Of a DNA stretch of 64,000 bases, positions 15,122-62,726 are shown in pieces (the first letter of the stretch is position 1; the number at the start of each line of letters is the position of its first letter). Made by a program: the position numbers and the translations under genes. A model generated the notes under the pieces. The model made no database searches. It was not told the origin of the DNA and saw only the letters and a list, made by a program, of their open reading frames with translations. This DNA comes from Clostridiales bacterium COT073_COT-073 (GTDB lineage: Bacteria > Bacillota > Clostridia > Lachnospirales > Vallitaleaceae): NCBI GenBank assembly GCA_003858485.1, contig RQYD01000008.1, positions 1 to 64,000 of the forward strand, written 5' to 3'.

Positions 15122-15122
15122 A

Positions 15123-15914: not shown

Positions 15915-15932
15915 ATCCTGTCCTTTCCTTGC

Positions 15933-20544: not shown

Positions 20545-20748
20545 CTATTTCGTTTTCGTTCCCTCCGGAGTCGGTACTTCCGCTGCTTTATTTCCCTGAT
20601 CGGTCAAACCTCTGATCAAATTATTGAATAAGTTGATGATTACATTTCGGAATGCAATTGCCATTGCTAACAATACAACAATGATGATGATGATTTCAAT
20701 CGTACCCAAACCTTCTTCTTCATACCAAAATCTCTTTAAGCTCTCCAT
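20545..20748 (-). CDS. flp: Flp1-type major pilin subunit
   Basis: 67 residues from ATG 20748 (MESLKRFWYEEEG). The start is set by AAGGAGG just upstream and by an internal promoter at 20771-20799 that excludes the ATG at 20793. Prepilin cleavage is expected after Gly13, leaving LGTIE with Glu at +5 and then a very hydrophobic helix (IIIIIVVLLAMAIAF). The short polar tail is Pro/Thr/Lys-rich. This is the fibre-forming subunit of the Tad pilus. There is no equivalent gene in the second copy of the cluster. Confidence 0.9.
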   Translation of the reverse strand: MESLKRFWYEEEGLGTIEIIIIIVVLLAMAIAFRNVIINLFNNLIRGLTDQGNKAAEVPTPEGTKTK

Positions 20749-20770
20749 TCTCGCCACCTCCTTCCTCTTT

Positions 20771-20799
20771 ATTATAGTTTCTTTGTTCCCCATTTTCAG
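20771..20799 (-). promoter_or_regulatory. Internal promoter for flp
   Basis: Minus-strand CTGAAA (20794-20799), 17 bp, TATAAT (20771-20776). Transcription would start roughly 15-20 bases before the flp ribosome site. It could give the major pilin more mRNA than the rest of the operon. Confidence 0.6.
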
Positions 20800-20878
20800 C
20801 CTTATCCTTTAGCTAAAACAGGTATATATAAAGGTCAGTTTATACTTACCATTTATATCTTTCATATCTTACTTCACT

Positions 20879-22444: not shown

Positions 22445-22447
22445 AGC

Positions 22448-23290: not shown

Positions 23291-23299
23291 AACACCCTC

Positions 23300-24655
23300 C
23301 TATAAGTCCAGCTCATATCCTGCCATTTGCAGTTTCAGCCGGCTTTGCAGTTTGTTGCCGGTTCGTTGTAACCTGCCCTTTACTTTCTTTTTATCTTCCG
23401 ACGGCTCCTCCTCAAAGCGGAACAGCGGATTTAACTCAATTTGCTTGGTTTGCACATTATAACCAAGGACCTCACAGATTTCCAAAGTTTTCCGGCTCTT
23501 ATCCCTTAATCTGCCTAAATGAATAACAATATCAAGGGCCGAGGCAATTTGCTGACGAATGGCCTCCAGCGGCAATTCAACTGCCATTAAAACCATGGTT
23601 TCCAAACGACTCATCATATCATGAACGGAGTTAGCATGGCCGGTCGATAATGAGCCATCATGGCCGGTATTCATGGCCTGCAGCATATCGAGTGCTTCTT
23701 CGCCCCGGACTTCACCAACTACTACCCGGTCCGGACGCATCCGCAGGGAGGCTTTGATCAATTCCCGAATCGGAATATCCAAACCAGCTTGTTTATTAGC
23801 ACTTTTCCTGGCTTCCAGCCGAACCAAGTTGGTGATCCCGTTAATTCGGAGCTCAGCCGCATCCTCAATCGTAATGATTCTCTCATCTTTAGGAATAAAA
23901 TTGGACAGCATATTTAAGAATGTGGTTTTTCCTGAGCCGGTACCACCGGATACAAAAATATTGTATTTGGCAGCCACTAAAATCTCCAAAATCTCAGCCA
24001 CTTCCTCCGTAATTGAGCCCCAACGGATCAAATCTTCAACCATCAGCGGCTTATCAGGGAATTTCCGGATCGTTAAAATCGGTCCATTTAAAGCAATCGG
24101 AGGAAAAACAGCATTGACCCGCGAACCATCAGCCAGTCTGGCATCAACAATCGGTGATGACTGGTTAATTTCCCGGTTAACACTTTCCACGATCTTACGG
24201 ATGATCCGCTCTAATTCTTTGCTGTTATCAAAGCGAATATCCAGCTCGGTGATCCGGCCGGCCCGCTCCACTAAAATCGGAGCTGTACCGTTGACCATAA
24301 CTTCAGTGATGGTTTTGTCTTCCAGAATCGGCTGTAGGATTCCCAGCCCCCGGGTGATATTGATCAATTCTTCAATCAGGATCTTTTTTTGCTGCAGACT
24401 ATAATCAATTCCTCTGTACTGTAAATAATTATAGGTGATCTCCTGGACCTGCCGCCGGTACTTTTCATCTTTTTTCTTCTCAATATATTCCGGATTATTT
24501 AACCAATGTTCCGGCAATCCCTTTTCCCTGTCAACGGCAATTTCGGCGGAAACATCAATTTCTACTCCGGCTAAAGTTTCAACAATTTGGCGTTTCAGAT
24601 TCTCACGTAATTCACTATATTCTTTTTCCGCTTGCTTTTCCGCTTGATTGTCCAT
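23300..24655 (-). CDS. tadA: TadA/CpaF-type pilus assembly ATPase
   Basis: 451 residues, standard length. Secretion ATPase motifs are complete: Walker A GGTGSGKTT near 225, the Asp-box region ITIEDAAELRI, Walker B VVVGEVRGEEALDML and the His box MNTGHDGSLSTGHANS. It powers pilin polymerisation and possibly retraction at the cytoplasmic face. It follows tadZ by 6 bp. A 243-codon open frame on the opposite strand (23673-24404) is only a shadow of this gene. Confidence 0.95.
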   Translation of the reverse strand: MDNQAEKQAEKEYSELRENLKRQIVETLAGVEIDVSAEIAVDREKGLPEHWLNNPEYIEKKKDEKYRRQVQEITYNYLQYRGIDYSLQQKKILIEELINITRGLGILQPILEDKTITEVMVNGTAPILVERAGRITELDIRFDNSKELERIIRKIVESVNREINQSSPIVDARLADGSRVNAVFPPIALNGPILTIRKFPDKPLMVEDLIRWGSITEEVAEILEILVAAKYNIFVSGGTGSGKTTFLNMLSNFIPKDERIITIEDAAELRINGITNLVRLEARKSANKQAGLDIPIRELIKASLRMRPDRVVVGEVRGEEALDMLQAMNTGHDGSLSTGHANSVHDMMSRLETMVLMAVELPLEAIRQQIASALDIVIHLGRLRDKSRKTLEICEVLGYNVQTKQIELNPLFRFEEEPSEDKKKVKGRLQRTGNKLQSRLKLQMAGYELDL

Positions 24656-24661
24656 TTTTTC

Positions 24662-25747
24662 CTACCTTTCCATCACCGAATAGATAAAGTTCCTGAGGCG
24701 ACCGGCAATCCCCGAATCCATCGGAAAAACTACTTCCTCTCCGGCAACCGCCTTAATTTGCGGGTCATAACCCAGTTCACAAAATGCCACAAACTCATTT
24801 GGATCAATAACCGACCGCGAAGCACTATGTTTCGCTGAATTGATAATACCGTAAAGCTCTCTTTGCTCAGGATAACGCCGGCGGAAATAATTCATGCCTT
24901 TGGTAAACATCAGACCTTCCACATAGCCCTTAGCACCAATACAAAAGATATAATCACTCTGCTCAATCCAGTGCCGGGTCGAAAATACATCATTAACTGA
25001 CAAGTCAAAAACCAAATATTCATAATCGGTTTCTTTTTGCAGCAATTCCAAAAATTTCTTCCAGTCATCAAGGTCAACGGCCATCTTATCTTCCGGTGAT
25101 TCTAAACCAACTAAATAATTTAAGCCGGTCTGTGGATTTTTGGCCACCAACCGGTTCAGCTCATAGCGAATGGCCGCCGTCATATCCGCTCCGGTAAAAA
25201 GCTGCTCTAAAGAGCCGGATGTTTGAGCTGCTCCATATAGCAAACGCCGATCATTAAAGTCTTCCATCGGCAGATACAAAACCCGTTTCCCCATTTCCGC
25301 CAAAAGATTTGCCACCAGCAAAGAAATGCTGGTTTTTCCACAGCCACCGATCGGTGAAAAAAAGCTGATCACTTTTGTTTTTTTCTGATCTCTGGAAACT
25401 GAAATTAAATTTTGCGTTTTGGCATAAAGGTTCATGACCTCCCGGTAAATTTCTTCCAGAGCCACTAATTTACTTACTTTATAAAAATCTTGATATTCAG
25501 CAGGGATAACGCCGGCATATAAAAGCACAACCACATGGTTAACCAGAATTTCCTTTAATAAGGCATAACTCTGCGGAGTGGTCAAGACCATCTTATACTC
25601 GGCTAATTGCTGTTTAGACATAGACTGACAACTTGCGGCATTCGTAATCACATCAACATTCAACAAAGCATCCTGAGCCTGAAAATATTGCTGTAAATTT
25701 TGGGCAAACCTCAAGTTTTCTTCTATTAATAATATGCTTTTATTCAT
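24662..25747 (-). CDS. tadZ: TadZ/CpaE-type localisation ATPase
   Basis: 361 residues. An N-terminal receiver-like domain (about 1-110, starting MNKSILLIEENLRFAQ) is followed by a MinD/ParA-type domain with P-loop SPIGGCGKTS (131-140). TadZ proteins place the Tad machine in the cell. First gene of the complete tad operon, with its own extended -10 promoter at 25885-25913. The GGGAG ribosome site is slightly far from the ATG. Confidence 0.88.
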   Translation of the reverse strand: MNKSILLIEENLRFAQNLQQYFQAQDALLNVDVITNAASCQSMSKQQLAEYKMVLTTPQSYALLKEILVNHVVVLLYAGVIPAEYQDFYKVSKLVALEEIYREVMNLYAKTQNLISVSRDQKKTKVISFFSPIGGCGKTSISLLVANLLAEMGKRVLYLPMEDFNDRRLLYGAAQTSGSLEQLFTGADMTAAIRYELNRLVAKNPQTGLNYLVGLESPEDKMAVDLDDWKKFLELLQKETDYEYLVFDLSVNDVFSTRHWIEQSDYIFCIGAKGYVEGLMFTKGMNYFRRRYPEQRELYGIINSAKHSASRSVIDPNEFVAFCELGYDPQIKAVAGEEVVFPMDSGIAGRLRNFIYSVMER

Positions 25748-26016: not shown

Positions 26017-26826
26017 TTACTCCCCAACCCAGGCCCGGACCGTCTTATTGACCGTTCTTTCCAGTTCAATATCCGGTGCCAGAAATAACGGAATGCCGAT
26101 TTTGTATTTTATATTTACGGTCAGCAAGCGATCAATTTTTGCATCCTTATTACTATATAAAATCCCATTTTCGCCCATGGTGATCTCCATCTTACGTATC
26201 CGGTAGTGATGCGCATTTTCTCCCAGCCCACGACGGACCGCTGATAAAATATATCTGCTTAAAAGATATTGCATGCCCTTTGAGACGCCGGTACTGATCA
26301 GGGATAAACCAATTCCCTTGGGATCAGCCAACAGCTCTTTTCCGCTGGCATAGATATCGGTCACATCTTTATAAGTGTTTTTCATCTGATCATAGGTTCC
26401 GCCAAAATTGCCGATCAATTCTTTTCGAAAACGAGGAAGTTCTTTTAAAATTCCCAAAAGATTGCCGCCTTTCCAATGACTGAGCAAATTTTTTCCGGAT
26501 TCGCCCAGTTCAAAGGACGCAATGCTGTCTTTCACCTCCTTCGTATTTGCGTAGGCCGCTTTGCCTTTTTCAATAACTGCTTCAATTTTTTGATCCGTAC
26601 CCTTGGTTCGCTCAGCGATCCTGTCACCGGCCTCGATCAGCCCCAATTGATCCAGATAAAAAGTTTTTCCGGCAATATCCTGCAGCACCTGTGCAGCCAC
26701 GGCATCGATCGTGTTATGAATATAATAGACCTGAATCATATATGCCAAAGTCAGCATGGTAAAAATATACACCGGCAAAGTTACCGCGGCTTCCAGTGTC
26801 AACGCCCCTTTCTTTTTTTTCTCCAT
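26017..26826 (-). CDS. TadE/TadF-like pseudopilin (cluster 2 copy)
   Basis: 269 residues, collinear with the pseudopilin at 15123-15914: start MEKKKKGALTLEAAV, the shared segment FYLDQLGLIEAGDRIAERT and the end VNIKYKIGIPLFLAPDIELE. It keeps the class III signal with Glu at +5. GAGGAAGGAATG precedes the ATG. The frame is fully open although its upstream neighbour carries a stop codon. It is the last gene of the partial duplicate, and tadZ of the complete operon follows 270 bp further on. Confidence 0.85.
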   Translation of the reverse strand: MEKKKKGALTLEAAVTLPVYIFTMLTLAYMIQVYYIHNTIDAVAAQVLQDIAGKTFYLDQLGLIEAGDRIAERTKGTDQKIEAVIEKGKAAYANTKEVKDSIASFELGESGKNLLSHWKGGNLLGILKELPRFRKELIGNFGGTYDQMKNTYKDVTDIYASGKELLADPKGIGLSLISTGVSKGMQYLLSRYILSAVRRGLGENAHHYRIRKMEITMGENGILYSNKDAKIDRLLTVNIKYKIGIPLFLAPDIELERTVNKTVRAWVGE

Positions 26827-26842
26827 ATCATTCCTTCCTCAT

Positions 26843-29800
26843 TTAATATCCGGCAACCGAACGCAAATTAAAATCAACCTCTTTATACCGATCCTCATTT
26901 ACGGTGATGGCATTGGACTGTTTCTTGGCAATTTGAATCAGTCTGGGTAAAAACAAATATTTTACTTTAAAACCGGCATTTAATTCCACCCCTGACATAT
27001 AGCTGCTGATCTGCTTCTGTTCGCGCAGTTGTATCAGATCCAAAATCCGGAAAATTTTATCATTTTCATTGGTGAAGATCAGATAAAAACGCAGATAATC
27101 CTCATAGCCAAGGCTAAAGGCCGATGCACTTTTATCCTCTGTACTTAAATGCCCCGCCTGACCGGAAAAAGCATTTTTGATCTTATTGTCATAAAAGGAC
27201 TGCATTTTTTCAGCTCCCAGATCAATCTGGTCATTTAAGTATTCTTGCAGATCCGCTTTGATCTCATCTTTTTTGGCAGTAAAATCCTTTTCCAATGGTG
27301 CAAAAACTACTTCTTCCAGCTTTTGTTCCGCTTGTGTACGCAAATTGGAAACCTGTGCGTTAATGGCTGACTGGATGCCGCCATCCTGCTTGATTTGTTC
27401 AATAATTTCCACCGCACTGCCGACATGGCCCGACAATTTGTTTTTCAATTTGTCATTGACCAGGCTGATTACATTTTTCATATTGGCATTGGCCGCTATG
27501 CTGATCGCCCGCTTGGTTTCAGTGTTAAACAGCAAATCAACATCAATGACTCCCATTTTTTCACCCCTGGCTCTGTATTTTTCAGCCTCCACAAAATAAC
27601 GGCCAACTGCGGTTTCAATATAATTATCAACGGATTTTTCAAAATCGCTGACCGCAGTTTCCACAGTTTGATATTTGGCGGTAACATAATCCTGCAGCCG
27701 GGCAATCTGCTCCTGCGATTTTTCTTCCAGCTTATTTGCCAATTCATTGGTCTTGTTCTTAATATACTTTTTTGCATCTTGGCCCATCTTGGTAACCATA
27801 CCATCTAAAGTATCAACGGCATTATCGACAGCATTTTTCGCTGCCTCCTTGCCTTTACTGATAACAATCTTGCCAAAGATATCAGCAAACGCTTTAAAGC
27901 CAGCGGGAGAAAGCATAAAGTCACTGCTGCCTTTTAAAAACGGAATTTTGATGCCCTGGCGCAGCACAAACACATCCACCAAAGACTCCAGAATCGCCCA
28001 TATCATAATGATCACCACATAGACCAAATAATATAAAGGCGGGAAAAACCAAGTGAGCGCTGAAGCAATCGAGATCGCCAATGAATTGGTCTCACTATGG
28101 GTAAAAATATATAAAGCATTAGGGATGATCCTAAGCATCAATATTTTGATAGCAATATTTTTATTATTCTCCCGATCGGATTTCTGGCCACCGATAATAT
28201 ACTCAATTTCCGATTCCAGCTTTAGCCCTTCACTTTTTATGGCCTTGGCCTTATCCTGAAATTTTAAATTCATTTGCTTTTCATATTCACCAATGCCGGT
28301 CACTGTTGAATAAAAGGCCGACATAATGTATTCATTGACATAGATCACCCCAATCGGATCTTCCACTAAATTTTTAAACCCACCAACTAAATTCTTGACC
28401 CCATCGATCCAGGAAGTGATGGTATTGGCCAATTTTTTGATCGCTCCCAGTGAGCGGGTATTTCCCTTAAACACACCTCCATCCGGGTTTTTCTGATCAT
28501 CCTGTGACCGCACTGCAATTGATGGCAAGGCTTTATATTCTTCCTGACTGAGCGCTTTGTCGCTGCCAAAAACAGAAATTGAGGAAAACATTTTGCCGGC
28601 CACTCCCAAAATCTTGCCGATCGAAGCAGAAGATTCTTCGGCTTTTTGCTGGGCAGCTGCCTTTTCTTCCGGTTTTTTATGAAACAGCTGTTCCTTGGTA
28701 AAATCAATATGCAAGCTTTGGCAATTTTCTATATATTGCTGCTGCAATGCCAAAAAACCAGCTTTGTCAAAGGTGCTCTGCCGTTTGATCCCCAATTCTT
28801 TGGCCAATTTACTGCCTTCATCCAAAATCACGCCAAATTTGATTGGCCTGATCATTTCGAATGTACCGGTTCGCAGATATTCCAATATAAAGTCACTGGT
28901 CGAAACACTTTCCGGAATCGTATAATATTCAAAATCCCTGAATTTTTCCAGTTCTTCTCCGACAATACACAGCTTTTGGATCATTTGGTTAAGCAGGGCA
29001 ATATTTTCATCAAATTTATTTTCCCGATTGACCCGTTCGACCTGCTGCCGGATAAGACCGATCATTTCCAGCTGATCCTCTAATTTGGGCAAAGTCGCCG
29101 CCGCGTAATTGGCATCTTTGACCTCTGTTTCACTCTTCAAACTATCTATTTCCGCCAGCACTTTTTTTTCATAGCTCTGAAGATTTCCGGAAATATTTGC
29201 CAAACTCTTTTTGGCCTTCTCATTAGCTCTTTTTAAAGCATCCAGGATCGCATACTTTTCTCTTGTCAGCCGGTAATTTTCTTTCAACCAGCGGACATCA
29301 CTGAGCATTGCCTCATTTAGTTCAACCACACTGCTCATCCATTCGGTCGCCAGCTCATTTTGCTCCTCTTCATTTTCGGGCTGCGGCTTTTCTGTCCCTT
29401 TTTTAGAATTATAGTAATCAGCATAATGCTTAAAAAAGACAGTGATTTTCTTTAAATGATCGGGCTTGGAGATATTATTGTATTTCTCCCGTTCTACGGT
29501 ATCAGGTGCCAAGGAGTGATAAAAGTGATAGACATTCAGCTGTTCCATGGCTTCGATCTGTTTCTCCAAACTCTCCCATTCCGGGCTTTGCGCCACGACT
29601 GTCAGCAATTGCCCCCGTTTCTCAGCTAATAATGCTTTTTGCTGCTGATCATGGTCAAATGCCCGCTGATCAGTAAAAGTTGCAAGTACAAAATCATAGC
29701 CCAATTTGGCATACTGAGTTCCCTCAAAATAGCCGGCATAACCCTCCACATCAAAATGACTGCGAGCATTTTGAAATAAGGTCGGGTCTGCCATATCAAT

Positions 29801-30427
29801 ATAAGGGCGATATGGATTTTCTGAAACATAATCAATCAAGGCCCGGACAAAATATCCGCCGGTTTTTGCTCCCAGGTCTTTGGCAATATATTTGTATCCC
29901 GGCTGATCTTCCTGAAATTTCCAGCCATGAAGAAAATAACGATACTGATTTAATGCATCCAAAAAGCTGCCATTACTCTTTTCCGTTTCCAGGCGTTGTT
30001 TTACTTTTTCGCCACTCTTGATCACATCCTGAATTGATTTCAGACGGGAATAAAGATTGGTGGCGATCAGGGCCGGGCCACGAAATTTCATGTATTCCAA
30101 AATTTGCTCTTTGGTTTCTGATGGATTCATTGGAATTGCTTTAATCTCTTGACTTTCCAAAGAACCTTCCTGAAAATTTTCTTTCAGCAAAAAGTTGGCT
30201 TTTTCCTTTATTCCCTCATTTTAAGCCATAAATAAGCCATATTTATCCTGAAAACCTTTATCGTATTTGGTGATCAATGAATTCGCTGCCAGCTCCATTG
30301 CCCGCTGAGCCTGGACCTTGAAGGCAGTCATCCGGGCAAAATCCAGCACTGACAAGCCGACCAACAGGATCGACATAAAAATCACTCCAAAATACAGAGT
30401 AAATGCTCCCTTTTTTCTTCTGCTCAT
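26843..30427 (-). pseudogene. DUF5702-like Tad surface protein, second copy, broken by one in-frame TAA
   Basis: Paralogue of the gene at 15933-19670. Codons 1-68 read MSRRKKGAFTLYFGVIF and onward to YGLFMA. Then comes TAA at 30221-30223, after which the same frame stays open for more than 1,100 codons (NEGIKEKANFLLKENFQ and on). In the intact copy the corresponding position is Pro in FMSPNGKLKEK, so a single codon separates this from a full-length gene of about 1,194 codons. No start codon with a ribosome site is obvious just after the stop. Alternatives to decay are recoding, reinitiation, phase variation or a sequencing error. Confidence 0.8.
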
Positions 30428-30607
30428 GACAATTCATCCTTTTTATTATTTGTTTCTATGGTGTCAGATCAGCCAAAATTGCTCATCTTCTTCCGGTTTC
30501 CAGACCTTCTTTTTTTGAAATATGCTGCAAAAGTCATCTGACCAATTAACTTTCCCTTATTCCTGAAATATTTTTTAAGATAAAGACCAAAATTACAAAA
30601 AGTAAAT

Positions 30608-31243
30608 TTACTTTAATAGTTTATCCAATGATTTTTTTAAATTGGCTTTGATTTCCTCCATTACTTTTCCGGCCTTGGTCAATTTTACGGCATCTTGTAA
30701 CAAGCTGATATTCCGGATCAATTCCGGCTGGTCAAACATGGCCACCTTAGCCTGGGTTGTAATAAAAACTCCATCTCCTTTAATGCCCAACACTTGCAAA
30801 AGCGGAACAATTTCCCGAATTCGTTTTTCACCGGTGACAACAATATAGGAAGATAAAAATTCGGTCTTTTTTTCAACCCGCAATTTCGAGTTGTTTTTAA
30901 AGATCATTCTGGCTTCCAGTTTTTTAGCTATATCTGATTCTTTAGGAATATAATTACTAAAAAACCGCCAATATACCGGGTAACGATAAGACCGCTGGCT
31001 CAAATCCACTTTCCATGATAATTTATCCTGATAAAAATATTTGTCTATTTGGTTAGCCTCTGACTCAGTGATATATTTGGCATTGGAGTATTTGGCAATA
31101 GCTTCGGCATAATTATGGCAAAACGCCGATAAGGCTGCTTTCTCGTAATAAATCAACACAAAATAAATCATCAGCACACTAACCGCCAATACAATCGGCA
31201 TCACAACTGCCGCCTCCAAAGTAATGCTGCCCCGTTTATTCAC
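30608..31243 (-). CDS. TadE-like minor pilin (cluster 2 copy)
   Basis: 211 residues, same length as the cluster 1 tadE. It starts MNKRGSITLEAAVVMPIVL with a class III signal and Glu at +5. Many segments are shared with the paralogue (CHNYAEAIAKYSNAKY; MIFKNNSKLRVEKKTEFLSS). It follows the second tadC by 42 bp with no flp gene between them, unlike cluster 1. Confidence 0.87.
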   Translation of the reverse strand: MNKRGSITLEAAVVMPIVLAVSVLMIYFVLIYYEKAALSAFCHNYAEAIAKYSNAKYITESEANQIDKYFYQDKLSWKVDLSQRSYRYPVYWRFFSNYIPKESDIAKKLEARMIFKNNSKLRVEKKTEFLSSYIVVTGEKRIREIVPLLQVLGIKGDGVFITTQAKVAMFDQPELIRNISLLQDAVKLTKAGKVMEEIKANLKKSLDKLLK

Positions 31244-31285
31244 AAACTCACTCTCCTCTTAAAGATCATCTTATGTTTTCCCCTT

Positions 31286-32827
31286 TTAAAATCCCATCTG
31301 AAAAATGGCCGGTGCCATGACCATAATAATAATGGCAATTAACATGATCACCAAGGGAATCATCATTTTAGTCGAAGCCTTGGCCCCCTTTTCCTTAGCC
31401 AGCTGCTTTTTCTTTTCCCAAGCTTCGCGCACCAAGCCAGTCAACGAATTGGTGATCTCTCTGTCACCCTTGCGAATGGCCTGACCAATCAAAGATGAAA
31501 ATTTCATAATATTGGGGATACGAATCCGTCTGCCGAAATTTTCAAAAGCATCGACATCAGAAATCCCCTGCTGGATCTCCTGGTACATGATTTTAAGCTC
31601 CTGATAAAGGGGATGATTGGCTTTTTCCGGATTGCCGGCCAGAGCCGACTGAATCGACTGATTAAGTGCTGCACCTACAGAATTGCCACAATTAAGGAGG
31701 AGTACAAATTTATCCACAAAAATCGGAAACTCCATTTCAATCCTGGTCTGGCGCTCTTTGATCTGTCTTTTCAGCTCTTGGTCATAGCCCATATAAGCTA
31801 CAATCGCCAAACCGAAAAACAAGGCAAAATACTGAAGGGCCTTGCTTTCACTGTCTTGACCGGTATTTTCAATATATTCAAACCATTGCATCTGCACATC
31901 TTTTTCTGCATCTTCACCGGGCAGAGAAACTTTTGCCTGCCCGACATACTGCTCCTGCTGATTGATATCGGCACCAGCCTCTTCAATCGCCTTACTTCTT
32001 AATTCAGCATCCGTATACTGCATTGGCAAAATGGTGACTTCTTTTTCCAGTTCATCCATTTTTTGATCCTGATAATAAATACTAATCTTGATTTTTTCTT
32101 TTTTCCCGTCTTTGGGGCGTTCGTGGCTGCGCATTGTGCCATCACTATAAAATAAACTCGCCTCCTCTGTTTCCCATTTCAGGCTAAGTCCGGATCGTTT
32201 ATCATATTTATACAAATCAAGCGAAGTGATGACCTGATCCCAGGCCCGGTTTTTTCCCAAAGCCAGTGTTTCTATATTTTCTCTGGCTATTTTCAATGCT
32301 TCCTTTAATTCTTCCTGAGTCGGCTCCCGGCGCGGCACGACAATGCTGATCTGCATATCGGTTTGGGTATCGTTGGCATTTTGCGGATTTTTATTTTCAG
32401 CCACCACCTGATATGTGATCTCCTTATCGCCCTCTAAGAAATTCGGTCTGGCAATTTCCGTGATTTGCCTGGGCTGATCCGGGCTGCCTGTGGTCAGGCT
32501 TTGAATGGCTGTTAATAGTCCGATCAGGGAAGCTGCTCCGATCAGCAGTGCTAATATCGTTAATTTATGGATATAAAAAAGCCGGACTTTATTTTCCACT
32601 TCCCGTGGCCCGGTCATTTGGCCATAGAGCTGTCTGGTTTTTTCGACCTGCCCCGGCGCCAGATCCAAATGCTTTTCTTTGAGAATATTATATCCCCAAT
32701 ATGCTCCCATAGACATTAAGTCCTTCAGCGGAAATTCTTTTTTATCCAAACCGGCATAGCCATCCCCATATGTTCTTCTGCCCTGGATCAGCAAAAACAA
32801 GGCAAAAAGCAAACAGGGCAATGCCAC
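31286..32827 (-). CDS. TadC-like platform protein, second copy, with degraded start
   Basis: 513 codons from the first in-frame start-like codon, a GTG at 32827. It is closely similar to the cluster 1 tadC throughout, including the outward-facing insert and the end GLVREAWEKKKQLAKEKGA. The paralogue's ATG-ATG start aligns with TGG-TTT here (32846-32851), and an in-frame TGA sits just ahead (32855-32857), so the normal start is gone. The GTG used here lacks a ribosome site. The gene may be silent or poorly translated despite an open frame and an upstream promoter. Confidence 0.75.
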   Translation of the reverse strand: MALPCLLFALFLLIQGRRTYGDGYAGLDKKEFPLKDLMSMGAYWGYNILKEKHLDLAPGQVEKTRQLYGQMTGPREVENKVRLFYIHKLTILALLIGAASLIGLLTAIQSLTTGSPDQPRQITEIARPNFLEGDKEITYQVVAENKNPQNANDTQTDMQISIVVPRREPTQEELKEALKIARENIETLALGKNRAWDQVITSLDLYKYDKRSGLSLKWETEEASLFYSDGTMRSHERPKDGKKEKIKISIYYQDQKMDELEKEVTILPMQYTDAELRSKAIEEAGADINQQEQYVGQAKVSLPGEDAEKDVQMQWFEYIENTGQDSESKALQYFALFFGLAIVAYMGYDQELKRQIKERQTRIEMEFPIFVDKFVLLLNCGNSVGAALNQSIQSALAGNPEKANHPLYQELKIMYQEIQQGISDVDAFENFGRRIRIPNIMKFSSLIGQAIRKGDREITNSLTGLVREAWEKKKQLAKEKGAKASTKMMIPLVIMLIAIIIMVMAPAIFQMGF

Positions 32828-53415: not shown

Positions 53416-53444
53416 TTGACATTCCCAATCCAGCTATTTATAAT
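53416..53444 (+). promoter_or_regulatory. Consensus promoter of the paired membrane-protein operon
   Basis: TTGACA (53416-53421), 17 bp, TATAAT (53439-53444). The start site would be near 53451, giving a leader of about 95 bases. Confidence 0.9.
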
Positions 53445-53514: not shown

Positions 53515-53544
53515 ACTCTTAAAACCTGGGTTGAGGAGGTATTT

Positions 53545-55662
53545 ATGACATTTTTTTTAATTATAACTGCTCTTGCTTTTGGTATGTTAATCAGTCTGCC
53601 GGAAACTCCTATGTTTTTTCTGAGCATTTGTCTATCCCTTTCCTTTTTAGCTGTTTCAGCCTACAACACCTATCACTCAAAAAAAATCAGCAATCAAATC
53701 ATATGGGCAGCTTATCTGCTGGCGATCATCCTGTTCTACCAAACTTTAAAACAAATTTGGCCGGCTTTTTACTATGGCTTAAGTCGCCTGTCCCTAGGCC
53801 TTTCCGGTTTGACCGGCTGGCTGATTGATAAGCCAATTGCGATGAATATCACCTATAGCGGAATTGATTTGGTCTTTTTATTTGTGGTCGCTTTTTTACT
53901 GCTGTGTTTGCTTTTTCAGGAAAAGCGAATTTCTGTCCTTATTTCCTATTTGCTCCTGTCTTTATTCTTGTGGTTGGTTTATCCGGCAGTTTGGACTGTT
54001 CTGGCCGAAAACAGCCTGAGTTTGCGTCTGCATTTGTTAGAGCCGCTGACTGGTCCGCTGGATTACCGGCTGCTTTTATTTGCTTTGCTGCTGCTGTTGT
54101 ATCATTATTTTACCCGGAAAATTTTACGAATTCACAGTCAACCGGACCTGGCTTTAAAAATTAAATATTTTTCGGCAGCAGCTCTGTCCGTCAGTTTGCT
54201 TTTTTCTTTTTTCAGCACATCAGTCGCTCAAAATCCGGAATCAGACAAAAGCCAGGTGGTCTTTTGGGATACCGGCATTGATTTTAGTTTGCCCACATAT
54301 GAGCGCTATGGCCTGGACCAAGTTGGAATGTTTGGTGCCTTACCTCACTATCTAAAAAGGCAGGGTTATGAGTCTTTCCGGGCAAAAAAACTGACTACTG
54401 AAACTCTGCAAAGTGCCAAAGTACTGGTGATCTTAAATCCCGGTCGCACTCCTGAGCCGGCAGAATTAACAGCCATTTGGCAATTTACCGAAAATGGCGG
54501 TTCCGTTTTACTGGCCGGCGATCACACCTGCCAGGAACAAATTCGCTGGCCGATTAATGAAATTTTAAAACCGGTGGGAATTGAGTTGAATTTTGACAGT
54601 GCTGTTCCTTTTAAAGAATTGTGGGGCGGACAATATCAGCAGGCATCGGCGCCGGTATTAAAAGGCATTCAGCATGAGCAACTTCAAATTGTGGTCGGCG
54701 CTTCACTGACTGCCGGACCAAGGGTCAAACCATTAATTATCGGCCGGGAAGGGTTTTCTGATGCTGGTGATTTAACCAATCCGGAAAACGGCTATTTAGG
54801 CAATATGCATTTTAATCGCGGGGAAACGATCGGTGATATGCTGCTGGCAGCTGAAGCTACTTATGGTAGAGGAACCTTTATGGCCTTTGCTGATACCAGT
54901 CCATTTCAAAATACCGTTTTAGCATATAGTTACCCTTTGATTGATAATATTTTTGCTTATTTAAGCCAAAGTCAAGCAACTGCTGCCATTGATAATTCGA
55001 TTTCACAGCTATTGCCGGCAGCCGAAAGCAATGCTTTTCCGGCTTCAGCCATTATTGATTTGGCTTATTTACCGTCGATTGCCCGGGATAAATCGCTTAA
55101 TTCGGTTGATGGTTTTGTAGCGGCAACAATGCGCGCCGGAATGATGCCTTATTTTAATTACTCTGATACTTTAGCCAATGCCCTTGCCCGCCAGCCGGAC
55201 AACAAGCTCCTGCTTTTAATTGAGCCGGCTCTGGAGCTTTCTGCAAAAGATCTGGCAGCAATTGATCAATTTTTAATGTCCGGCGGCAATCTCATCCTCT
55301 GCGTCGGTTATGAAAGTCCGGCCGCCGCTCAAAAGCTGGCAAAACATTTTGGCTTTGGTTTTAGCCAAATTCCCCTTGGCCGGATTGCTCCTGACAAAAA
55401 TCCAACCATGGCTTCCTGGAATGCCTGCCCGCTTTTATATCAGGGACAGCCAATCGGCCACAGCGGAGAGGTTGTCAGTTTACTGGAACTTTGGGATTAT
55501 AGTATTATTGCCCGTCAAAATATCGGACAGGGGCAGTTGTATCTGCTGGCTGATCCGGATTTTCTGAAAAATAAAAATTTAGAGCATGTTGACAGCTATC
55601 GGGAAGGCAATGTTGTATTTGTCAATACTATTTTGGCAGAAATCGGAAAGGGGGAAAAATAG
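53545..55662 (+). CDS. Polytopic membrane protein with GATase1/DUF4350-like outer domains (first of pair)
   Basis: About 705 residues from MTFFLIITALAF, chosen for GAGGAGG just upstream (the frame opens at 53506). About seven to eight TM helices occupy residues 1-230. Two alpha/beta domains of glutamine-amidotransferase-like look follow: one (about 240-470) with VVFWDTGIDF, VLVILNPGRTP, GGSVLLAGDHTCQEQ and FMAFADTSPF; one (about 500-705) with LLLLIEPALEL, GGNLILCVGYESP and LYLLADPDFL. No catalytic Cys-His-Glu triad is evident. It is paralogous to the next gene, 4 bp away. Function not known; sensing or binding at the outer face is possible. Confidence 0.75.
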   Translation: MTFFLIITALAFGMLISLPETPMFFLSICLSLSFLAVSAYNTYHSKKISNQIIWAAYLLAIILFYQTLKQIWPAFYYGLSRLSLGLSGLTGWLIDKPIAMNITYSGIDLVFLFVVAFLLLCLLFQEKRISVLISYLLLSLFLWLVYPAVWTVLAENSLSLRLHLLEPLTGPLDYRLLLFALLLLLYHYFTRKILRIHSQPDLALKIKYFSAAALSVSLLFSFFSTSVAQNPESDKSQVVFWDTGIDFSLPTYERYGLDQVGMFGALPHYLKRQGYESFRAKKLTTETLQSAKVLVILNPGRTPEPAELTAIWQFTENGGSVLLAGDHTCQEQIRWPINEILKPVGIELNFDSAVPFKELWGGQYQQASAPVLKGIQHEQLQIVVGASLTAGPRVKPLIIGREGFSDAGDLTNPENGYLGNMHFNRGETIGDMLLAAEATYGRGTFMAFADTSPFQNTVLAYSYPLIDNIFAYLSQSQATAAIDNSISQLLPAAESNAFPASAIIDLAYLPSIARDKSLNSVDGFVAATMRAGMMPYFNYSDTLANALARQPDNKLLLLIEPALELSAKDLAAIDQFLMSGGNLILCVGYESPAAAQKLAKHFGFGFSQIPLGRIAPDKNPTMASWNACPLLYQGQPIGHSGEVVSLLELWDYSIIARQNIGQGQLYLLADPDFLKNKNLEHVDSYREGNVVFVNTILAEIGKGEK

Positions 55663-55665
55663 GAA

Positions 55666-57993
55666 ATGGATTTTTTATGGCTTTCTTTGTTTTGGTTTGC
55701 CTGTGCCTGGATTAATCTCCTGCATTTTTACGAAGCGCCCAGTGCTTTAACTATTTTAGCTTTTGGATTTGGCTTTTTATCAGCTGTTTCGGCATTTTTG
55801 CCAAAACACGGTAAAAAAGAGAAAGCACTCATTATCCGCAGCGGCCTTTCCTTTTGCTTGCCGCTGCTCATTTTACAGGCTGCCTTTTTGCCTTTTTACC
55901 GGCTTTGGGCTGCCCGCTTTCATGCCGAATCCTTTTTTATCTCCATACTCAGTCCGATTTTAAATTGGTTTGGCCTGAAAAATGCAGTTGAAAATTCAAT
56001 TCTTTATTTAGAGGCACCATTAAAAAGCATCAAATTTTTAAGTACCTGGGAAAAAGTTGGCTGGCCATATCTCCTTTTATTTGGCTTGGGCAGCCTTTGG
56101 ATCTTCTATTTAAAAAGAGCCAAAATCCAGACCGTGATTGGCAGCCTGATCCTGATTCCAGTTTATGCTTTGCTTCGCTATGCCTTTTTAATTATGATCT
56201 ATGCCAGCTATCCAATACACAGCATTTTTTGGCAACGGACTTTTACTTTCTTAACTTTTTTACCCCTGGTTTTTTTACTGTCGCTTCTGACCCGAAAACT
56301 GCCGATCCTGCAAATCAACTGGAGATTCTCCGGTTTGTTTGTGTCTGAAAATCTGATCCCGGCGATTTTGCTGGTTGGCCTGACTTTTTCTGGCACCGCT
56401 TTTTTGGGCTTACGCGATCCTGGAATTGCCAAAGCCGGACGTTTGCTGATTGATGAATATCACAGTGACTGGGAGTGGACAACCGAAGCCTATGATGAAA
56501 ACTGGTTTGGCGAGCGTTCTGGTTACAATTACTATTGTTTTTTTAATTATCTGGCCCGATATTTCACCACCAGCCGAAATTTACAGGCAATTGATGCAGC
56601 CGCTTTGCAAGATCAGGATATTTTAATTTTAAAAACACCAACCAAGCCTTTTACCTCTGATGAAATCAAGGCGATTGTCGATTTTGTTGAGCAAGGTGGT
56701 GGTCTTTACTTAATTGGTGATCATACCAATGTGTTCGGTACCGGCACCAATTTAAATCAATTATCTAAACATTTTGGCATTACTTTTAAGTATGATTGTA
56801 CTTATGAACTGGTAAACGGTAATTTATCTGAGTTTCAAAGGCCTTGGCTGTTGTCGCATCCCAGCATTAAGGATCTGCCGCCATTTTTATTTGCCAGCTC
56901 CAATACTTTACAGGCACCCTGGCAGGCTGAAGAAGCTATGATTGGCTATGGACTGAAAACCTTACCAGCCGATTACTCGCAAAAAAACTTTTTTCCGGCC
57001 GATTCTAATAATGCCGAATTAAGTTTTGGCTTATTTTTGCAGGCTGTGGCTGTCCAGCATGGCCATGGCCGGGTACTGGCCTTTACTGATAGTACTGTTT
57101 TTTCCAATTTCTGGATGTTTATGCCCGGTAAGCCCGAACTTTTATTGGGTAGCGTTAACTGGTTGAATTACCGTAATCGCTTTCCGGCCTTTCCACCCCG
57201 AAAAATTGCCGGACTGCTGTGTCTTCTTTTTCTGGTGCTGCTGCTTAGCTGGCGCTTTGGACACAAAAAGCCAATTCCACTCGGACTTATTTTCAGTACC
57301 GGCCTGCTTAGCTTTCTTGTGTTTGCTGTTAGCTTTCAATTGATCAATCAGGCGGTCTACCCCCTGCCCCAGCCAATTGCCCCTATCACCTCTGTTGCCT
57401 TTGAAAAAGAATATTCCCGTTTTCAATTGCCCAGTGATTTACAGGGCTTTACCAGTGATGCCGATCAACAGCTGAATACTTTTTATGTCTGGACCCAGCG
57501 GCTGGATTATTTTCCCAAAGTTGAACCTGATTTAAAAACTGCTCTGAGTACTTCTCATTTGACTGTAATGGCTAAACCCGGCCGGACGATCAGGCATCCC
57601 GGAAAAATTATTGAACAGATTAACGCTGGTGCTAATTTACTGATTTTAGACAATCTGAATGCCGGCGGCTATGCCAACTCCCTGCTGTCATTAGCCGGAA
57701 TGAAACTGGAAAAAGCAGCCATGGCTGCTGCTGCCGACTATGAAGAAATCACCAATATTCCGCTGACTGCCAATGCTTCAGCCATTCGCGGCGGTCAGCC
57801 CTTGATTTTAGATAAAAATGGCAATTGCCTTTGTGCCAGCATCCAAATCGGCCAAGGTAAATTAACGGTTTTCTCTGACCCGGATTTATTCTATAACCAT
57901 TTTCTGGGTGATGTCAGCGCCAATTTAACAGAGCAAACGGAAATTTTAAGTAAATTGGAATTTAAACTGTTAAAATCTTTGGTTCAGGAATAA
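55666..57993 (+). CDS. Polytopic membrane protein with GATase1/DUF4350-like outer domains (second of pair)
   Basis: 775 residues. Seven or so N-terminal TM helices (to about 255), an alpha/beta domain (about 260-500) with LLIDEYHSDWEW, ILILKTPTKPF, GGGLYLIGDHTNVFGTG and VLAFTDSTVF, two further TM helices (about 508-560), and a second alpha/beta domain (about 570-775) ending GQGKLTVFSDPDLFYNHFLG. The motif GDHT after a Gly-rich strand is shared with the first gene. The part LILIPVYALLRYAFLIMIYA followed by a His recalls the exosortase core, but the catalytic Cys is missing, so this is only a hint. Function unknown. Confidence 0.75.
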   Translation: MDFLWLSLFWFACAWINLLHFYEAPSALTILAFGFGFLSAVSAFLPKHGKKEKALIIRSGLSFCLPLLILQAAFLPFYRLWAARFHAESFFISILSPILNWFGLKNAVENSILYLEAPLKSIKFLSTWEKVGWPYLLLFGLGSLWIFYLKRAKIQTVIGSLILIPVYALLRYAFLIMIYASYPIHSIFWQRTFTFLTFLPLVFLLSLLTRKLPILQINWRFSGLFVSENLIPAILLVGLTFSGTAFLGLRDPGIAKAGRLLIDEYHSDWEWTTEAYDENWFGERSGYNYYCFFNYLARYFTTSRNLQAIDAAALQDQDILILKTPTKPFTSDEIKAIVDFVEQGGGLYLIGDHTNVFGTGTNLNQLSKHFGITFKYDCTYELVNGNLSEFQRPWLLSHPSIKDLPPFLFASSNTLQAPWQAEEAMIGYGLKTLPADYSQKNFFPADSNNAELSFGLFLQAVAVQHGHGRVLAFTDSTVFSNFWMFMPGKPELLLGSVNWLNYRNRFPAFPPRKIAGLLCLLFLVLLLSWRFGHKKPIPLGLIFSTGLLSFLVFAVSFQLINQAVYPLPQPIAPITSVAFEKEYSRFQLPSDLQGFTSDADQQLNTFYVWTQRLDYFPKVEPDLKTALSTSHLTVMAKPGRTIRHPGKIIEQINAGANLLILDNLNAGGYANSLLSLAGMKLEKAAMAAAADYEEITNIPLTANASAIRGGQPLILDKNGNCLCASIQIGQGKLTVFSDPDLFYNHFLGDVSANLTEQTEILSKLEFKLLKSLVQE

Positions 57994-58112
57994 TGAATGG
58001 TTCCCATTTGTTGATTGGTCTTTAGTCATAGCTATCAGCTGACAGCCCCGGAGCATAGTGCTGCCATTGACAGGTCGCTCCATGGCTGTCATAATTGATT
58101 CTTTTTCTATGC
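57994..58112. other. Gap with hairpin between the membrane-protein pair and nrdD
   Basis: No gene. TGACAGCC (58040-58047) pairs with GGCTGTCA (58084-58091), with an inner GGAGC/GCTCC pair and a following T-rich CTTTTTCT. This is a probable terminator for the upstream operon. Confidence 0.65.
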
Positions 58113-58141
58113 TTGACACAATATCTTGTGGATGATATAAT
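58113..58141 (+). promoter_or_regulatory. Perfect consensus promoter of nrdDG
   Basis: TTGACA (58113-58118), 17 bp, TATAAT (58136-58141). It is covered by NrdR boxes on both sides. Confidence 0.95.
58116..58131. promoter_or_regulatory. NrdR box 1
   Basis: ACACAATATCTTGTGG fits the NrdR consensus acaCwATATaTwGtgt and covers the end of the -35 box and the spacer. Confidence 0.88.
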
Positions 58142-58374: not shown

Positions 58375-60489
58375 ATGATCACTAGAGTCAGAAAAAGAAA
58401 TGGAGAAATCAAAGAATTTAATAAAATCAAAATTGCCCGGGCAATTTTTAAGGCAGCCAAAGCCTGTGGCGGCAGTGATTTTGATAAAGCCCTGGAATTA
58501 ACCGATCAGGTTGTTTTGCATTTGCAGGAACATTTTACCGACCCGGTCAATATTGAAGATATCCAAGACAGTGTGGAAAAGATTTTAATCGAAAACGGTC
58601 ATGCCCGAACCGCCAAAAAATTCATTCTTTATCGGCATCAGCGGGCTGAAGCCCGGCAAAAAAACTCACTGGTCGGAGCAACCATCCATTTGATGAATAA
58701 TTATTTGGATGAGCTGGACTGGCAGGTCAAGGAAAATGCCAACAGTGCCGACCGTTCGGTCATGGCTTTATATAATTATACCCGTGAAGAATTTATCAAG
58801 CTCTACTGGTTAAATGAAATTTATCCGGTGGAAGTTTCCAATGCCCACGAAAGCGGCGATATGCATATTCATGATCTGGGCTTTTTATCGCCTTACTGCT
58901 CGGGTTGGGATTTATATCAATTGATTCGTGATGGTTTTCGGGGAGAGCGGCAATCCAGTACGCCGGCCAATCATTTTTCCACTATTTTAGGACAACTGGC
59001 CAATTCGATCTTTGCCACTCAGCTGGAAAACGCCGGTGCTCAGGCCTTTTCTTCTTTTGATACCTATTTAGCCCCTTTTATCCGACATGACAAATTAAAT
59101 TATACTGATGTTAAACGGTACTTGCGTTCTTTTATTTTTGAAATCAATATGCCGATGCGGGTCGGCGGACAAGCTCCATTTTCCAATCTGACTTTTGATT
59201 TAGTTTGTCCTTCCAATTTAAAGGATACAGCAGTTATTATCGGCGGAAAAATGCAGGACAGCTGTTATGGCGACTACCAGGCCGAAATGGATATGATCAA
59301 TCTGGCCTTTGTCGAATGTATGACCGAGGGGGATGCTGATGGACGGCTTTTGACCTTCCCCATCCCCACCCTGAATATTGACCAGGAGTTCCCCTGGGAC
59401 AGCAAGGTGGTAAAAGCCTGGATGGATCTGACTATCAAATTTGGGATTCCTTATTTTGCTAATTTTGTTAATTCCGATTTATCAAAAGAAGATGCTCGCA
59501 GCATGTGCTGCCGGCTGCGACTTGACCAGCGCGAGCTGCGAAAGCGGGGTGGCGGCTTGTTTGGCTCCAATCCTTTAACCGGCAGCATTGGTGTAGTAAC
59601 TTTAAATTTACCGCGCATTGGTTATCGCTCGCGCACCAAAGAACAATTTATGGCCCGACTTGGCAATATGGTTGATATTGCTGTTGAATCTTTGGAAATA
59701 AAGCGTCAGTTTTTAGAAAAATGGACGCTCGACGGCCTCTATCCCTATTGCCGGATTTATCTGGAACCAATTTACCAAAAAACCGGTCAGTACTGGTCCA
59801 ATCATTTTTCCACCATCGGTTTGGTCGGTATGAATGAAGCCCTGGAAAACTTTATTGGTAAAGACCTTGGCTCTGAAAAAGGGATTGCCTTCGCTCATGA
59901 AATTATGGATTTTTTGCGGAATAAATTAAGTGATGTGCAGCAGACCACCGGTAATATGTATAATCTGGAAGCCACTCCGGCTGAATCAACGGCCTACCGG
60001 CTGGCTCTGAAAGACCGGCGTTTATATCCGGATATCATTTGTCAGGGTACAGATGAAACTCCTTATTATACGAACTCTTCCCAACTGCCGCCTGATTATT
60101 CAGATGATATGATGGAAGTCATTGACTTGCAGGATAGTCTGCAAGCCAAATATACCGGCGGAACGGTACTACATTTATATACCGCCGATAAAGTTGATAA
60201 TTCAGAAGTGGTTGAGCGTTTAATCAAGAAAATATTTGAGCGTTACCAAATGCCTTATATTTCCTATACTCCAACTTTTAGTCATTGTCCAGAACATGGC
60301 TATATCAAGGGCGAATACTTTGAATGTCCAAAATGTCACCAGGAAACCTTGGTATATTCCAGGGTTACCGGCTACTACCGGCCAATTCAGCGCTTCAATA
60401 ATGGCAAAGCCCAGGAATTTAAAGACCGGCTAAAATTTGATTTGACTCCGGAAAGTATTAAAGATTATGAAGATAGTTGCTTACAATAA
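58375..60489 (+). CDS. nrdD: Anaerobic (class III) ribonucleoside-triphosphate reductase
   Basis: About 704 residues from MITRVRKRNGEIKEF. ATP-cone (about 1-95), catalytic barrel, zinc site near the C-terminus (CPEH and CPKC) and glycyl-radical motif SRVTGYYRP. It makes deoxynucleotides without oxygen. The start is uncertain: AAAGGAG lies about 25 bases before this ATG with no start codon in between, while the earlier ATG at 58318 has no ribosome site. Family alignment favours 58375. It is repressed by NrdR through the two boxes at its promoter and overlaps nrdG by 23 bp. Confidence 0.96.
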   Translation: MITRVRKRNGEIKEFNKIKIARAIFKAAKACGGSDFDKALELTDQVVLHLQEHFTDPVNIEDIQDSVEKILIENGHARTAKKFILYRHQRAEARQKNSLVGATIHLMNNYLDELDWQVKENANSADRSVMALYNYTREEFIKLYWLNEIYPVEVSNAHESGDMHIHDLGFLSPYCSGWDLYQLIRDGFRGERQSSTPANHFSTILGQLANSIFATQLENAGAQAFSSFDTYLAPFIRHDKLNYTDVKRYLRSFIFEINMPMRVGGQAPFSNLTFDLVCPSNLKDTAVIIGGKMQDSCYGDYQAEMDMINLAFVECMTEGDADGRLLTFPIPTLNIDQEFPWDSKVVKAWMDLTIKFGIPYFANFVNSDLSKEDARSMCCRLRLDQRELRKRGGGLFGSNPLTGSIGVVTLNLPRIGYRSRTKEQFMARLGNMVDIAVESLEIKRQFLEKWTLDGLYPYCRIYLEPIYQKTGQYWSNHFSTIGLVGMNEALENFIGKDLGSEKGIAFAHEIMDFLRNKLSDVQQTTGNMYNLEATPAESTAYRLALKDRRLYPDIICQGTDETPYYTNSSQLPPDYSDDMMEVIDLQDSLQAKYTGGTVLHLYTADKVDNSEVVERLIKKIFERYQMPYISYTPTFSHCPEHGYIKGEYFECPKCHQETLVYSRVTGYYRPIQRFNNGKAQEFKDRLKFDLTPESIKDYEDSCLQ

Positions 60490-61270
60490 ATGCTCCTTGC
60501 TTGATTATCACCCTTATATTGCAGCCGTGGTGTTTACACCCGGCTGCAATATGATTTGTGCCTATTGTCATAATCAGGCATTGCTGCACAGTCATGATTA
60601 TATAGAAGAAGATGTAATTTTCCGGCATTTGCAACATTCAAAAATGTTGGAAGCAATCGTCATCACCGGTGGCGAACCGACCTTGCAGGGGCAGGCATTA
60701 ATTGAATTCCTGCGCCGGGTCCGCTCCTGTTTTCCGGTGGTATCTATGCCGATATCAGAAAGCCGCAATATCTCCGACAAAGATCAGGATATGACCCGGC
60801 CAGCTCCAGCTTCTGCCAGTTCCTGGCCCGGCCATCAGCCAGATATGCCTGCACTGCAAACCAGCGGATTAAAAATCAAACTGGATACCAACGGCACTAA
60901 TCCAAAACTATTGGCTCAAATTCTGGAGGCCGGTTTGGTTGATTATGTGGCCATGGATATTAAGGCGACTCCGGAAAAATATGTGCAAATTTGTGGTCTG
61001 CCCTTTGACCGGGTAAAGGATTCTCTTTGTCTGCTCCGGGCCTTTGGAGCATATGAATTGCGAACCACTGTCTATCCGGAAATTACACTTTCCGAACTGG
61101 AAAACCTCTGTCAAACCTATCAGGCCGATCCTTACTTCCTTCAACAATACCGGCGGATAGAGGCCAATGGCTTAATTCCATATGATGATGATGTTTTGCA
61201 GAGAGTAGCTGCCAAATACCAAATCCCCCTACGTGGGATCTCAGCTGCTACATCCCGCCTTCGGTCTTAG
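60467..61270 (+). CDS. nrdG: Anaerobic ribonucleotide reductase activating protein (radical SAM, NrdG2 type)
   Basis: 267 residues. Fe-S motif C27-x3-C31-x2-C34 (TPGCNMICAYCHN), GGEPTLQ near 69, LDTNGTNP near 139, VDYVAMDIKA. It generates the glycyl radical on NrdD using SAM. The ATG overlaps the end of nrdD (23 bp), so translation is coupled. Residues about 87-133 (SMPISESRNISDKDQ, then RPAPASASSWPGHQPDMP) form a Ser/Pro-rich insert between the barrel strand and KIKLDTNG that I do not recall from other family members. Confidence 0.93.
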   Translation: MKIVAYNKCSLLDYHPYIAAVVFTPGCNMICAYCHNQALLHSHDYIEEDVIFRHLQHSKMLEAIVITGGEPTLQGQALIEFLRRVRSCFPVVSMPISESRNISDKDQDMTRPAPASASSWPGHQPDMPALQTSGLKIKLDTNGTNPKLLAQILEAGLVDYVAMDIKATPEKYVQICGLPFDRVKDSLCLLRAFGAYELRTTVYPEITLSELENLCQTYQADPYFLQQYRRIEANGLIPYDDDVLQRVAAKYQIPLRGISAATSRLRS

Positions 61271-62726
61271 CATCCCATGGATAATAACGGTAAAAATCCG
61301 TTCCCTCACTGCCAGCCAGACAAAGCTGCCCTAAACCGGTTACATCTTCTTTTAAGCCATCTTTTTGGGGATCGGCATGAAGTTCATACCATTTCTCCAG
61401 CTTTTGTCTTAGTTCGATTATTTTCTCCTGATATTCAGCCTGACCATATAAATTATTTTCCTCGTCAGGATCAACTGCTAAATGATATAGCTCATGTCCG
61501 CCATATGGATAACGGTGAATATATTTCCAGTCTTTTTGCCGAATCATCCGCACCGGTCCGTATTCATCAAAAATAACCACTTCTTCCCGGCCTGCTTCCG
61601 TCTCACCTTTCAGCAACGGCAGGAAGCTTCTGCCCGGCAAATTTTCCGGCAAATCATTTGACAGCCCTAAGAGATCGAGCAAAGTCGGGAAAAAGTCATA
61701 AGCACTGAGCATTTCCTGACAAATGCTGCCTGCTTGAATCAGCGGCGGATAACTAATTAAAAATGGTACTTTAACTGAAGTATCAAACATATTCAGCGGA
61801 AAAGTGCCATTGCCTTTGCCCCAAATGCCATGATGCCCCATATTCATGCCATTATCGGCCGCAAACACCAAAATAGTATGATCGATTTCGCCCTTTTCCT
61901 TAAGCCAGTTTAAAATTCGTCCAATTTGCTCATCCATAGCACTGACCGCTGCAAAATAACCCCTTAAATTTTGATGCCGTTTAGCCCGGCCATTTTCCTT
62001 GCCCACTGCCATATCAGGATGATCCGGCAAGTCAGGGATACTGGCAAAATCACAGTTATCATAATAATCGATCCATTTTTGGGGATGGTGCTCTGCTCCC
62101 CAAGGGGAATGTGGTGCCGTATAATGAACGCTTAAATAAAAAGGTGTATCCCGGTCGGCTCTTAATTCATCCAGCATCTTCAAAGCATTATCGGTAATTA
62201 ATTCGGTAACATATTGCCCATCTTTAATATGAATTTCTCCATTTTCAACAATATCCGGTTTATAATAGTGACAACCTCCCTTGCCAATGGTATACCATTC
62301 CTGAAAGCCATGCTGAGGGGTGATGCTGTCGCCCAAATGCCATTTCCCGGATAAGACGCAGTGATAACCATTTTTCGCTAAAACATCTGTATAGGTAACC
62401 TGCCCTGCCAAATACTGAATTGGTTTTTTTTCATCAACATAGCCGCCATATGGATTGGCATTTCCCTGCTGCTTAAAAATATCGGCATCAACGTTGCCAG
62501 AGCGGATCCAGTCATGGACCCCATGCACAGATGGGATATTGCCGGTCAGCAGAGATGCTCTGGCCGGAGAACAAACCGGCGAAGCACAAAAGAAATTATT
62601 CATCTGCATACCCCGCTTGGCAATCTCATCCAAATTGGGAGTATATAACTCCGGCGTGCCGCCCCGACCAAAGGCCCATGCCCCCTGGTCATCCGATAAA
62701 ATAAAAATAATATTGGGTTTTTTCAT
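61248..62726 (-). CDS. Cysteine-type sulfatase (alkaline phosphatase superfamily)
   Basis: 492 residues. Metal site SDDQGAWAFG (D12, D13). Sulfatase signature CSPARASLLTG with Cys52, which must be turned into formylglycine by an anaerobic maturase (not in the window). GKWHLGD and VFAADNGMNMGHHG complete the site. No signal peptide was seen, so it is probably cytoplasmic and acts on imported sulfated sugars. Next to an LplA-type binding protein and not far from the DhuI/DhuD-like pair, it fits glycosaminoglycan use. GGAGG precedes the ATG. Its tail overlaps nrdG by 23 bp on the opposite strand. Confidence 0.93.
   Translation of the reverse strand: MKKPNIIFILSDDQGAWAFGRGGTPELYTPNLDEIAKRGMQMNNFFCASPVCSPARASLLTGNIPSVHGVHDWIRSGNVDADIFKQQGNANPYGGYVDEKKPIQYLAGQVTYTDVLAKNGYHCVLSGKWHLGDSITPQHGFQEWYTIGKGGCHYYKPDIVENGEIHIKDGQYVTELITDNALKMLDELRADRDTPFYLSVHYTAPHSPWGAEHHPQKWIDYYDNCDFASIPDLPDHPDMAVGKENGRAKRHQNLRGYFAAVSAMDEQIGRILNWLKEKGEIDHTILVFAADNGMNMGHHGIWGKGNGTFPLNMFDTSVKVPFLISYPPLIQAGSICQEMLSAYDFFPTLLDLLGLSNDLPENLPGRSFLPLLKGETEAGREEVVIFDEYGPVRMIRQKDWKYIHRYPYGGHELYHLAVDPDEENNLYGQAEYQEKIIELRQKLEKWYELHADPQKDGLKEDVTGLGQLCLAGSEGTDFYRYYPWDAKTEGGM

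Follow-up and report, generated by a model that had tools for sequence, protein, structure and literature searches.

What does the two-gene membrane operon found in a stretch of 64,000 nucleotides from Clostridiales bacterium COT073_COT-073 (the window) do, and with which other protein does it work? The operon consists of two intact open reading frames on the plus strand, separated by 3 bp. The first, P1 (53545–55662, 705 aa), starts with the ATG at 53545, preceded by a good ribosome-binding site (gaggaggt, 53533–53540), and the second, P2 (55666–57993, 775 aa), starts with the ATG at 55666. The operon promoter, recognised by sequence match on the same strand at 53416–53444, is a perfect sigma-70 consensus, TTGACA-N17-TATAAT, as originally reported. 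Judging from the translations, the upstream neighbour is a threonine-synthase-like gene on the opposite strand and the downstream neighbour is an anaerobic ribonucleotide-reductase-like gene at 58318, and the operon stands alone inside the 64-kb window.

The surroundings of the operon contain several further features. The gap ahead of the ribonucleotide-reductase-like gene holds a second perfect sigma-70 consensus with a TG before the −10 element (58113–58141), and a near-perfect one is located at 58067–58095. A radical-SAM activase-like gene (60467–61270, plus strand) and a sulfatase-like gene (61248–62726, minus strand) are convergent and share 23 bp at their 3' ends. On the minus strand, two alike and consecutive gene sets of the Tad/Flp pilus type (14537–25747 and 26017–32827, from translations) are apparently the product of a cluster duplication.

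Both proteins are built from an N-terminal membrane bundle and two outer domains of the GIFT/DUF4350 type. The bundle of P1 covers residues 1–227 (53545–54225; hydropathy) and is followed by a first GIFT/DUF4350 domain at about residues 237–475 (54253–54969; Pfam and alignment), which carries the motifs WDTGIDF...GMFGxLPxYL and GG-S-V-L-x-x-GDHT, and by a second one at about residues 500–700 (55042–55644; Pfam and hhalign). In P2 the bundle covers residues 1–250 (55666–56415; hydropathy and alignment), and its alignment with homologues keeps R171-Y172 and F188-W189 invariant, and H185 not. The first GIFT-like domain of P2 (residues 251–507; 56416–57186; alignment and structure comparison) contains a near-invariant DEYHSxWExT...W.GExSGYNYY segment together with GGGLxLxGDHTNVFG. 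A pair of membrane helices (residues 514–555; 57205–57330; hydropathy) then leads to the second GIFT-like domain (residues 571–775; 57376–57990), delimited by the model, Foldseek, structure comparison and hhalign. Such a helix pair is present in the P2 proteins and in the distant P1 of L109 and is absent from the P1 of the window; the ancestral plan was probably bundle, GIFT, two membrane helices, GIFT. The two proteins are paralogous across both outer domains (hhalign probability 99.6, E 1e-24) and share a motif of the type GG-x-L/(x)L-x-x-GDHT, in which G-G...D-H-T is invariant in both alignments. The original prediction that two paralogous genes form a real membrane system, with a helix bundle, two amidotransferase-like domains and a shared GDHT motif in each protein, is thus borne out by the intact frames, the hydrophobic N-terminal bundles, the alignments and the hhalign result.

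The outer domains belong to the known DUF4350/GIFT family. P1 and P2 exceed the Pfam cutoff of DUF4350 (PF14258, 30.4 bits) with 65 and 44.1 bits, in two stretches each, and that of IFT52_GIFT (27.2 bits) with 35.2 and 32.9 bits; the proteins of the congener and of the distant homologues also score above the DUF4350 cutoff. In the whole genome, P1 and P2 are the only frames matched by the DUF4350 profile. P1 additionally exceeds the cutoff of ABC_transp_aux, the GldG-type family of Pfam, so that the suggested comparison with DUF4350 and GldG-like families gave matches on both sides. The NCBIfam matches of the two proteins are confined to sub-threshold GldG, where the equivalog TIGR03521 reaches 13.1 bits, far below its cutoff of 389.85, and places neither protein among the GldG equivalogs. 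Class I glutamine amidotransferases are likewise not the proper assignment: their nucleophilic Cys is absent from the invariant columns of the P1 and P2 alignments, which agrees with the earlier remark that a catalytic triad is missing. The AlphaFold model of P2, made from 5 sequences and usable for the outer domains only, has a mean pLDDT of 54.5, with the cores of both outer domains at about 77–92. Its second outer domain matches IFT52 in the PDB (Z 16.7 over 177 residues, rmsd 2.7), followed by site-one protease (Z 14.6), Wbp1 (13.9), OST48 (13.8) and GH42 enzymes, and its first outer domain matches ThuA (Z 13.4) and IFT52 (13.3).

The idea of an undescribed system was to fall if both proteins strongly matched a characterised family whose role is known. 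The strong match exists, but to our knowledge no role has been settled for the DUF4350/GIFT family in bacteria. One of the weak phylum matches in frames of 700–750 aa (G532; L111:5662–7872) was rejected as a further copy of the system: it is a PHP-phosphoesterase-like protein with one C-terminal DUF4350-like domain, encoded between sugar ABC transporter genes.

The answer to the question of function is suggested by the relatives of the operon. Within the genus, they are found in G020. Three public MAG contigs, with the labels Bacillota, Clostridiales and Oscillospiraceae, carry further ones, as do all three sampled members of another family in the same class, among them the L004 genome; the more distant homologues come from two genomes of a second class. 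A secreted protein with Cys repeats, referred to as the TC-repeat protein or the client, is encoded next to the pair in 7/7 other genomes with a readable flank, across two classes (L002 is left out of this count, as its contig starts inside P1). The gene lies directly upstream of P1 in G020, L003, L004 (= G105), G044 and G078. In G630 and G606, which belong to the other class, it directly follows P2, and the two genes overlap at their ends. The gene-neighbourhood survey proposed with the original prediction therefore changes the picture of a stand-alone operon with no known neighbours: the description holds inside the window, but the relatives carry a conserved third gene beside the pair.

The same association is visible in the distribution of the genes. 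Orthologues of P2 occur in 4 of the 391 genomes of the class (G000, which is the genome of the window, G044, G078 and G105), and a pattern of Cys hexads gives 9–16 matches in exactly these four; the 1–2 stray matches in 8 other genomes of the class are unrelated when read in frame. Such a coincidence corresponds to one arrangement in C(391,4), about 1e-9, a value to be read with the shared ancestry that reduces the carriers to effectively two families. Among 398 phylum genomes, P1 orthologues occur in three, and TCxxTCxxTCxxTC gives 5, 20 and 17 matches in exactly these three, with 1–2 stray matches, unrelated in frame, in five others. The carriers represent few lineages (one genus, one small family with a few related MAGs, and one further class), so the counts cannot be taken as independent.

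In the window's own genome, the pair and the client are not adjacent, which is the counter-point to a three-component reading. An intact client is nevertheless encoded on another contig (G000:C1:38999–40402), 70–71% identical to that of G020; it was found by protein search, the stricter Cys pattern having missed the G000 copy. The absence of known neighbours thus no longer holds at the level of the system. In the genus of the window, the client gene is preceded by a minus-strand gene whose product, about 1270 aa long, fuses a GT2 glycosyltransferase with a Ser/Thr kinase and a DUF5050 region (L067:13762–17589; L144:3196–7005; profile search). The order in the window's genome is this fusion, a second DUF5050 protein of the kinase-like/propeller kind, one further SLH gene and then the client; in G020, the fusion and the second DUF5050 protein lead into client, P1 and P2. 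This common order implies that pair and client were separated in the window's lineage or joined in that of G020, and both halves were kept, so that all three genes are retained. A third member of the genus, G021 (89% complete), has neither the pair nor the TC-repeat protein.

The client has a recurrent design. It begins with a hydrophobic, signal peptide-like N-terminus, directly followed by a conserved tag of the SPLF type, which reads SPLFEASLKNTLREF in the window's class and SPMFATS or SPLFAQS in the other. The repeats have a Cys spacing of 4 (CGxT) and, in the window's class, also of 6 (CxGx[ST]T). Each protein contains 22 to 82 Cys, mostly preceded by Thr (Thr ahead of 17–78 Cys), with 15–41 consecutive spacings of 4 or 6 versus at most 6 in shuffled sequences. 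The C-terminus carries SLH domains in the window's class (62.5, 49.8, 79.2 and 58 bits versus a cutoff of 20.8), which together with the signal peptide-like N-terminus identify an SLH surface protein; in the other class, a WD40-like beta-propeller is present instead.

The structural model of the client is weak: the pLDDT is 52–67 over most hexads and 24–30 in the part that precedes the tetrads and extends into them. The PDB structures that it matches are SLH domains. The hexad part resembles left-handed beta-helix transferases and the Tenebrio antifreeze protein in the PDB, which for a low-complexity query is suggestive and not proof. The client hexads fit [LIV]-[GAED]-x2-[STAV]-x, as in the transferases, and share the Cys spacing of 6 with TC of the antifreeze protein; this is a low-complexity similarity only, and nothing points to a shared origin, to ice binding or to an acyltransferase activity. 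TC-repeat surface proteins with up to 82 Cys are apparently an undescribed class. Open-access phrase searches, which are weak evidence of absence, surfaced no publication on the family.

The partnership of P1 and P2 with the TC-repeat protein is highly probable, given their adjacency and co-occurrence. A three-component cell-envelope system, with the pair as the part that matures the client or installs it at the outer face, is the reading we consider moderately well supported, and the step from partnership to maturation or installation, drawn from the sequences, is somewhat favoured in its own right. In this proposed mechanism, P1 and P2 would form a probable heterodimer held by the N-terminal helices, with the two GIFT/DUF4350 domains of each protein exposed outside. 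The client, one TC-repeat protein per genome, would be exported via its own signal peptide, and the pair may recognise it through the tag behind that peptide (SPLFxASL..). It would then be matured or installed at the outer face and bind to the wall by its SLH domains (the propeller being seen in the other class). The most likely act would be a modification-coupled assembly of the Thr-Cys repeats, in which the GIFT domains may serve as non-catalytic binders of glycan or client, as OST48/Wbp1 is thought to do. The outer domains would hold the client and perhaps also a wall glycan or the donor of a sugar; in the genomes that encode glycosyltransferases nearby, these enzymes would take part.

Glycosylation specifically as the act of the pair is possible, if rather doubtful. 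In its favour are the fold match to OST48/Wbp1; the genes that lie 2–6 kb upstream of the TC-repeat gene in L003, namely a protein-O-mannosyltransferase-like gene (L003:562–3654; above cutoff for PMT and PMT_4TMC) and one for a GT2 glycosyltransferase (L003:3687–4655); and the GT2-kinase fusion of the window's genus. It is weakened by the lack of such genes beside the system in other lineages, as no glycosyltransferase gene was seen beside the client in G044, G078 and L004. GIFT domains are also found in transporters and in intraflagellar transport, so by themselves they do not imply glycosylation. OST48/Wbp1, the accessory subunit of the eukaryotic oligosaccharyltransferase, would resemble the pair in having a non-catalytic GIFT domain outside the membrane (predicted fold match with Z 13–14), but it has a single C-terminal TM helix and acts beside the catalytic STT3, whereas no STT3-like gene was seen beside P1 and P2 in the clusters read. 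The name of the GIFT domain derives from GldG and IFT52; the domain is present in Wbp1, and sugar binding has been proposed for it (PMC7226087).

The main rival of maturation or installation is that the pair is a dedicated exporter or a GldG-like secretion scaffold which carries the TC-repeat protein across the envelope unmodified. The ABC_transp_aux match of P1, the GIFT fold and the weak GldG matches recall GldG, the substrate-binding type of component of the gliding motility ABC transporter, and an archaeal DUF4350 family (arCOG01314), associated with S-layer-like proteins, is predicted to be a member of a secretion complex on the basis of these gene neighbourhoods (PMC5898192). The archaeal proteins share with the pair the outer-domain family, the membrane anchoring and the genomic link to surface proteins. 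They differ in having a signal peptide, one C-terminal TM helix and neighbours of the vWA and AAA+ ATPase types (PMC5898192). P1 and P2, in contrast, are paralogues that each cross the membrane several times and carry two outer domains, and their client is a TC-repeat protein. An exporter would sit poorly with the composition of the conserved cluster, which contains no ABC ATPase or permease gene and no GldF/GldA-type partner; an oligopeptide-type ABC gene set lies upstream in L039 and in none of the other clusters. The client, moreover, can go through Sec, as its signal peptide is an ordinary one, and the pair falls far under the GldG equivalog cutoff. Export without modification is accordingly considered unlikely.

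A second possibility is that the pair builds nothing and acts as a sensor of the condition of the envelope or the TC-repeat layer, signalling to kinases encoded beside the client. The Ser/Thr-kinase fusion and the kinase-like/DUF5050 propeller protein ahead of the client gene in the window's genus would suit such a role, but no cytoplasmic signalling domain is recognisable in P1 or P2 and no kinase gene was seen in the clusters of lineages outside this genus, which makes sensing quite improbable. Hardly credible is a degenerate exosortase-type system, in which the membrane part would be an exosortase core without its Cys: this first impression, to which T-Y-S-G-x-D-L in a P1 membrane helix and the conserved R171 of P2 add a loose recall of ACSG and the exosortase Arg, found no profile match (Pfam to E 1, NCBIfam to E 10, membrane parts alone included), the membrane part has no conserved Cys, H185 of P2 and the S-G of the P1 TYSG are lost in distant homologues, which leaves R171 from an incomplete Cys/Arg/His set, and the client ends in SLH domains or a propeller with no C-terminal sorting tail. 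The likeness to exosortase/PEP-CTERM is thus one of analogy, a single machine with a dedicated surface-protein client, and the original suggestion of an exosortase core does not hold. A role in anti-phage defence was also rejected, as a PADLOC search gave no match; no relative turned up when viral contigs were scanned with the P2 profile.

The maturation or installation of the TC-repeat protein by P1 and P2 remains the preferred reading, and the three components apparently form a real, conserved and undescribed system. Membership in DUF4350/GIFT is ordinary in itself, and the constant Thr-Cys-repeat partner is the surprise. More tentatively, it may be a new kind of envelope system, in which a membrane machine of paired GIFT-domain proteins would build a Cys/Thr-modified repeat surface protein, S-/O-glycosylated or crosslinked, with no counterpart among the sortase, exosortase, OST and PMT systems. 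With the TC-repeat protein, of which each genome has one, the DUF4350/GIFT proteins gain a specific candidate client, and their function can be tested directly. If the pair does act in glycosylation, the bacterial GIFT proteins would be tied to the role of the eukaryotic OST48/Wbp1.
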